Of a stretch of 63,453 nucleotides of DNA, positions 40,523 to 40,738 are shown in pieces (position 1 is the first letter of the stretch; each line of letters opens with the position of its first letter). The stretch comes from Paenibacillaceae bacterium (lineage in GTDB: Bacteria; Bacillota; Clostridia; Lachnospirales; Lachnospiraceae), in assembly GCA_015057715.1 (NCBI GenBank), contig SVDS01000013.1, forward strand, positions 1 to 63,453. Direction: 5' to 3'. A model generated the notes under the pieces. It was not told the DNA's origin, did no database searches, and saw only the letters and a program-made list of their open reading frames with translations. Both the position numbers and the translations under genes were made by a program.

Positions 40523-40614
40523 TGAATAAAAAAAGCCCCAGGCACACGAAACACACACAAAACAACTGCTTCCTGTGAAGCGGCAGTTCAGTCTGTGCTC
40601 ATGTAGCCTAGGGC
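40523..40614 (-). terminator. Terminator hairpin of the XDH leader (expression platform)
   Basis: On the minus strand, GCCCTAGGC (40606-40614) pairs over nine bases with GCCTGGGGC (40535-40543), immediately followed by seven T (40528-40534). The left arm includes the 3' end of the aptamer-like element. A folded aptamer and this terminator therefore exclude each other, which is the logic of a switch turned on by ligand. Confidence 0.65.
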
Positions 40615-40675
40615 AATTTAAGGTCGCCTGGTCGAGACGCTCAAACCATATTAATGAGCTTATACAAGAAGCAGT
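40597..40675 (-). ncRNA. Purine-riboswitch-like aptamer upstream of the XDH operon
   Basis: Read in RNA sense on the minus strand, the element has most landmarks of the purine aptamer: AUAA before P2 (40660-40663), a P2 stem GCUCA/UGAGC closing an AAUAUGG loop (40646-40652), a junction GUCUCGACC (40630-40638), and a P3 stem closing a CCUUAAA loop (40617-40623). P1 is short and imperfect (about 40665-40671 with 40599-40605). Two core differences stand out: the junction base that is U51 in the classical guanine aptamer is G (40633), and the last junction reads CUAGGCU rather than GACUAU. Ligand and function are inferred, and the alignment was made by eye. Confidence 0.6.
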
Positions 40676-40710
40676 CCATATTCAAATACTTCTTTGTATC
40701 TTTACAAATA

Positions 40711-40738
40711 ATTATAACGGATTATACCAGATAGTCAA
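40711..40738 (-). promoter_or_regulatory. Promoter of the XDH operon
   Basis: On the minus strand, TTGACT (40733-40738), 16 bases, TATAAT (40711-40716). Transcription would begin near 40704, giving a leader of about 245 bases that contains the whole switch. Confidence 0.75.

Follow-up and report, generated by a model that had tools for sequence, protein, structure and literature searches.

The leader of a xanthine dehydrogenase operon on the minus strand of the window, by which we mean the whole 63,453-nucleotide stretch of DNA that was analysed, is very probably a member of the xanthine-II riboswitch class, in which bound xanthine would block a terminator and turn the operon on. The leader does not represent a new class, since xanthine-II itself, the ligand it binds and its association with xanthine dehydrogenase have all been published (PMC9295807). 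A preliminary description of this DNA had recognized a purine-type aptamer with an altered core, and our results agree, with the landmarks on the minus strand, G at the position of U51 in guanine riboswitches (G51, 40633), CUAGGC in the last junction and 54.2 bits against the Rfam Purine model. The novelty that it implied does not hold, as G51 and the junction changes are those of xanthine-II, a class reported in 2022 together with evidence that it binds xanthine (PMC9295807). In the direction of transcription, the order of elements is a promoter-like site, the aptamer, a long hairpin with seven T (40614-40528), and the two xanthine dehydrogenase genes (Table 1).

Table 1. Features of the leader and of the genes that follow it; positions are those of the window.
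Feature	Position	Strand	Basis or remark
Promoter-like site, TTGACT - 16 nt - TATAAT	40711..40738	-	11/12 consensus matches
Aptamer, probably xanthine-II type	40598..40670	-	Purine match and covariation on 21 aptamers
P1	40670-40663 with 40605-40598	-	part of aptamer
TATAA landmark of aptamer	40664-40660	-	sequence
P2	40659-40653 with 40645-40639	-	part of aptamer
L2 loop AAUAUGG (DNA AATATGG)	40646..40652	-	GG invariant in 21/21 (alignment A4)
J2-3, GUCUCGACCA	40629..40638	-	guanine-I has two nt fewer, counting P3 from G40628
G at U51 position of guanine riboswitches	40633	-	Rfam alignment; invariant in the 21 A4 sequences, chosen for such a core
P3	40628-40624 with 40616-40612	-	part of aptamer
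L3 loop CCUUAAA (DNA CCTTAAA)	40617..40623	-	CC invariant in 21/21 (alignment A4)
J3-1, CUAGGC, enlarged	40606..40611	-	Purine consensus has AC after the pair closing P3
Intrinsic terminator hairpin	40535..40614	-	left arm reuses part of P3 3' side, J3-1 and P1 3' side
Terminator T run, seven T	40528..40534	-	sequence
Xanthine dehydrogenase Fe-S plus FAD subunit, 485 aa	39001..40458	-	TIGR02963 best, 402 bits, below the 467 cut-off
Xanthine dehydrogenase molybdopterin subunit, 783 aa	36687..39038	-	TIGR02965 901 bits, above the 849.5 cut-off

The match to Purine (RF00167) runs over 40687..40584 and covers model positions 1-102 of 102 (E 1.8e-6 for the whole window), and Purine alone rose above threshold when the whole window was searched with Rfam. 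Its score of 54.2 bits, against a gathering threshold of 37, cannot tell xanthine-II from guanine-I, and we used the junction letters and the gene neighbors instead. This covariance search had been put forward in the preliminary description as a check, and a full-model match is what it returned. Guanine-I riboswitches commonly lower the expression of genes for purine synthesis, salvage or uptake (PMC9295807). The window copy shares with them the three-stem junction, the loops (here predicted to kiss) and most conserved positions, whereas they have U51 and a short J3-1 with GAC before P1 where the window has G51 and CUAGGC; the Rfam alignment shows a UA insertion in the J3-1 of the window copy. 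That the leader is an ordinary guanine riboswitch with neutral core changes would fit a score above the general Purine cut-off, but we consider it highly improbable: G51 together with the enlarged J3-1 persists in distant genera (in a set selected for that core), both of the other Purine matches in this genome carry U51 with a short J3-1, and by our reasoning a guanine-controlled ON switch makes less sense for xanthine dehydrogenase.

Xanthine-II, once called the U,G,C variant (Hamal Dhakal et al. 2022), is described as having U51G, two extra nucleotides in J2-3 and a J3-1 that also carries an insertion; it looks like an ON switch, its genes include those for dioxygenase, allantoinase and xanthine dehydrogenase, and a terminator overlapping the aptamer is published for some examples (PMC9295807). 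The tested member, a Paenibacillus RNA located before allB, responded to xanthine alone among the purines tried, with a KD of ~36.5 uM (PMC9295807), and a crystal structure of the class (PDB 9IWF) is cited in PMC12776560. The window copy has the U51G change, the enlarged J3-1, the three-stem scaffold, the ON-type terminator overlap and the xanthine dehydrogenase genes of the class so described, and, with P3 counted from G40628, the enlarged J2-3 as well. It differs in its host, apparently a Lacrimispora, and in a U-U mismatch in P1. Unnamed Clostridium species are among the hosts of the variants in that paper (PMC9295807), and therefore the window copy may already be in the published set. Our literature search found no paper combining Lacrimispora and xanthine dehydrogenase.

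Two other published classes were compared. Guanine-II has the same scaffold, most of the other xanthine-II variations and ON-type control, but keeps U51, has a single-nucleotide insertion in J2-3 (one less than xanthine-II) and precedes phosphoribosyltransferase genes (PMC9295807), unlike the window with its G51 and xanthine dehydrogenase. Xanthine-I, the NMT1 motif (PMC7373994), has the same ligand as xanthine-II and controls the same type of genes, but according to PMC9295807 its architecture is entirely different.

We collected relatives of the leader by pattern and model searches, and found the same core in 26 other leaders of distinct sequence. Alignments A2 and A3 contain 35 G51 matches; comparing the aptamer plus the 100 nt after it leaves 27 distinct leaders, several of them near-identical Lacrimispora copies. 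Alignment A4 holds 21 distinct aptamers, the other six of the 27 repeating an included aptamer. In A4, two-sided change was seen in 10 of the 22 pairs, a value reached in 0/500 shuffles, which ignore relatedness, and 89.4% of cells were paired, as opposed to 34.6-54.2% when partners were slid by one to three columns. A three-stem junction of P1, P2 and P3 is thus borne out by covariation in related leaders, as the preliminary description had required, with the GG of L2 and the CC of L3 invariant; by analogy with the known purine scaffold, these would kiss. The G of column 44 is found in all 21 sequences, which were selected for such a core. J3-1 ends in a conserved YAGGC, and the J2-3 sequence GUYUCGACC is the same before allantoinase and Rieske oxygenase genes. 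The window's L2 is AAUAUGG, as against changed or shorter loops in the 13 A4 copies from family f33 (described below).

The length counted for J2-3 depends on where P3 is taken to start. We set the start at G40628 because the pair outside it (columns 48/67) fails in 20 of the 21 A4 sequences; the Rfam alignment counts this outer pair into P3 and so shows no two-nucleotide insertion in J2-3. The J2-3 of the window is one nucleotide longer than that of the U51 leaders of phosphoribosyltransferase genes, which agrees with the published difference. Both J2-3 and J3-1 of the window are those of the G51 set, and the leader is therefore xanthine-II on the features that can be tested here, the J2-3 count being subject to the start of P3. 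The P1 mismatch (40667 with 40601 in the window, columns 10/77) is common to the Lacrimispora, Herbinix, Clostridiales MAG and Desulfosporosinus copies; these columns are unpaired in 5/21 A4 sequences and U-A in the other 16.

Folding energies were computed for the aptamer and for the leader. The 94-nt aptamer alone folds no better than its shuffles (z +0.60, 141/200 at least as good), which gives no folding support, and the nested native fold reaches at best -12.2 kcal/mol, 4.8 kcal/mol above the minimum of -17.0 kcal/mol; kissing loops and ligand are absent from the energy model used for this fold and its shuffles. This result, and the P1 mismatch, would suit a decayed aptamer, in which case the leader would do no more than terminate or attenuate transcription constitutively. 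We give that reading very little credence, given that leaders of xanthine dehydrogenase genes in Lacrimispora, Herbinix and Desulfosporosinus have nearly the same core and that the paired columns of A4 vary in step.

The 168-nt leader as a whole folds at -61.9 kcal/mol (z -4.85, 0/200 shuffles as good). The preliminary description saw a nine-base-pair terminator whose left arm reuses the 3' part of the aptamer, as expected for an ON switch. The reuse is clearly present, and the nine pairs are exact for the outer stem, GCCCUAGGC/GCCUGGGGC, which uses part of the P3 3' side and all of J3-1, but the full terminator is longer: its inner pairs take in the P1 3' side too, giving 17 pairs between the last 25 nt of the aptamer and the 32 nt preceding the T run. 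A consensus terminator scan, which allows only loops of 3-8 nt, gave just a 5-pair hairpin within it. The same overlap of aptamer 3' side and terminator occurs in 25 of the 27 distinct G51 leaders; the two without an overlapping terminator by the rule applied to all 27 are L093 and L135, the latter missed for want of a T run, with a hairpin on its aptamer 3' side visible by eye. The promoter reported earlier is there as a promoter-like site with 11 of 12 consensus positions, but as one site of this type was found against 0.8 expected in shuffles, it is weak evidence by itself.

A model of regulation follows from the anatomy of the leader and the published tests of the class. Transcription would start just upstream, and the aptamer would form first. 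With xanthine bound, P1, P3 and J3-1 would stay in the aptamer, the terminator would not form, and the xanthine dehydrogenase operon would be transcribed; without xanthine, GCCCUAGGCUACAUGAGCAC would pair with the downstream arm and transcription would stop at the T run. Binding of xanthine by the window copy, and the switching on of the operon by that binding, are thus predicted from its sequence and by analogy.

The genes downstream are those of a xanthine dehydrogenase, as the preliminary description had it. The 783-aa subunit scores 901 bits with TIGR02965 and has MoCoBD_1, MoCoBD_2 and Ald_Xan_dh_C domains, and the 485-aa subunit has Fer2, Fer2_2, FAD_binding_5 and CO_deh_flav_C, as expected for an Fe-S and FAD subunit. 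The 8-oxoguanine riboswitch has core changes of its own and is linked to 8-oxoguanine deaminase genes; the genes here match xanthine dehydrogenase models, not a deaminase. Genes of purine oxidation downstream, as in xanthine-II, are found in the window, with its xanthine dehydrogenase, and in relatives.

The genus of the window appears to be Lacrimispora, and near-identical leaders occur in Lacrimispora amygdalina records. Three more are found under other labels, in a Hungatella MAG (L045) and two Paenibacillaceae MAGs (L057, L058); we take these labels to be wrong and these leaders to be distinct from the f33 copies. Within the genus, the 9 of 25 genomes that have the leader are also the 9 that have the large subunit, with about 1.5 kb between the two on one contig; the leader was told by a 104-nt Purine match and the large subunit by an E-value of at most 1e-100; the leader letters were read in 5 of the 9. 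In one of the nine, G322, two separate matches make up the large subunit (contig C1, 2309475-2311824).

For searches beyond the genus, we built a covariance model, R1, from seven G51 leaders including that of the window. Homologous leaders before xanthine dehydrogenase genes, which the preliminary description had suggested looking for in Lachnospiraceae, do keep G51 and the junction (in a set chosen for that core), but over 299 genomes of this wider family, one per genus, only the window's own genome (G000) exceeded 57 bits with R1. The next match had 56.7 bits, and the weaker ones were not read singly. This scattered occurrence with the same genes suggests that the leader may have spread together with the operon. 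A BLASTN search of the leader against plasmids gave no match.

Scanning a collection of about 85,000 species with a DNA pattern yielded 27 stretches. Of these, 13 fit GTNTCGACC, and 14 were set aside because by eye their letters looked like chance hits or unrelated DNA. Since the pattern demanded NATATGG in the L2 loop, the f33 copies escaped it and were picked up later by the covariance model. Among the more distant relatives, by eye, the leaders in Herbinix (L042), a Clostridiales MAG (L043) and Desulfosporosinus (L046) precede xanthine dehydrogenase genes. The leader of a Bacillota MAG (L036, same sequence as L089 of genome G447) precedes a Bmp-type lipoprotein gene, and that of a MAG labelled Deltaproteobacteria (L044) an NCS2 permease gene, whose best subfamily, PbuX, is below cut-off. 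Between the first terminator and the permease gene of the latter lies a second, degraded-looking aptamer (L044:2395-2474, minus strand, 29.6 bits with R1), with by eye a hairpin-like stretch of its own, and a tandem arrangement is possible.

R1 was run over 398 genomes of the phylum and then over 197 genomes (3-9 Mb) of family f33; above 40 genomes per search the filters become stricter, and weak matches may be lost. We infer that f33 is Paenibacillaceae because both of its leader and gene sets are those published for Paenibacillus. Fifteen distinct G51 leaders read in f33, with GUYUCGACCAGGC, precede allantoinase (6) or Rieske oxygenase (9) genes, and 16 U51 leaders, with a J2-3 one nucleotide shorter, precede phosphoribosyltransferase genes; these counts leave out the 79-81 bit matches G740:C1:3295004, G763:C78 and G844:C1:3390106, and nearly all R1 matches below 65 bits in the phylum and f33 runs were left out of reading. 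L138 and L139, with U51 and a short J3-1, fall outside both sets. Family models confirmed one allantoinase, two Rieske proteins and one phosphoribosyltransferase (loci L119, L122, L118 and L126), and the rest were assigned by eye. The split of genes between G51 and U51 leaders in f33 equals that published for xanthine-II and guanine-II (PMC9295807). At one locus (L118:1501-3080), a xanthine-II type leader lies directly before a phosphoribosyltransferase gene followed by a Rieske oxygenase gene, placing both gene kinds behind one switch.

Some aptamers read in these runs have other combinations of core letters. Eight (L094, L097, L098, L106, L107, L111, L112 and L154) have U51 together with an enlarged, xanthine-II-like J3-1; L094 precedes a xanthine dehydrogenase-like gene and the other seven, by eye, NCS2-type permease genes. 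They are possible intermediates between guanine-I and xanthine-II. Another U51 aptamer (L092:1501-1580), with J3-1 AUAGCC, stands before what by eye is a permease-like gene. A purine-type aptamer of neither the U51 nor the G51 type, with a strongly divergent J2-3 (GUGCAGUACC) and J3-1 CCCAGGCUA, occurs once among the loci read (L156:2501-2581, minus strand, the same element as L180, genome G447). By eye it has an arm resembling a terminator, and the gene behind it encodes a glutamate formimidoyltransferase (343 bits with TIGR02024, cut-off 221).

The ligand named here is one of several listed in the preliminary description. Xanthine was on that list; hypoxanthine, urate and oxidised purines are less likely, as the tested member, located before allB, was exclusive to xanthine among the purines tried (PMC9295807). 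A xanthine-II-like aptamer might have been retuned here to another ligand of purine oxidation, such as urate or hypoxanthine, and the P1 mismatch, a host outside the clade we assign to Paenibacillaceae and the control of xanthine dehydrogenase rather than allantoinase would be in keeping with this. We think it very unlikely, since GUYUCGACC in J2-3 and YAGGC in J3-1 are as in the leaders before allantoinase and Rieske oxygenase, and there is correspondingly only a slim chance that the Lacrimispora copy keeps the xanthine-II core and senses a different oxidised purine, for example urate. If it did, one core would serve two ligands in different bacteria.

With xanthine as the probable ligand, a rare riboswitch class that was tested in print with a Paenibacillus RNA (PMC9295807) is placed in what appears to be Lacrimispora, where it would have a clear metabolic role. 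Herbinix, Desulfosporosinus and other lineages also carry this core, before genes for xanthine dehydrogenase, an NCS2 permease and a Bmp-type transporter, which provides a wider and more varied set of sequences for structure work.
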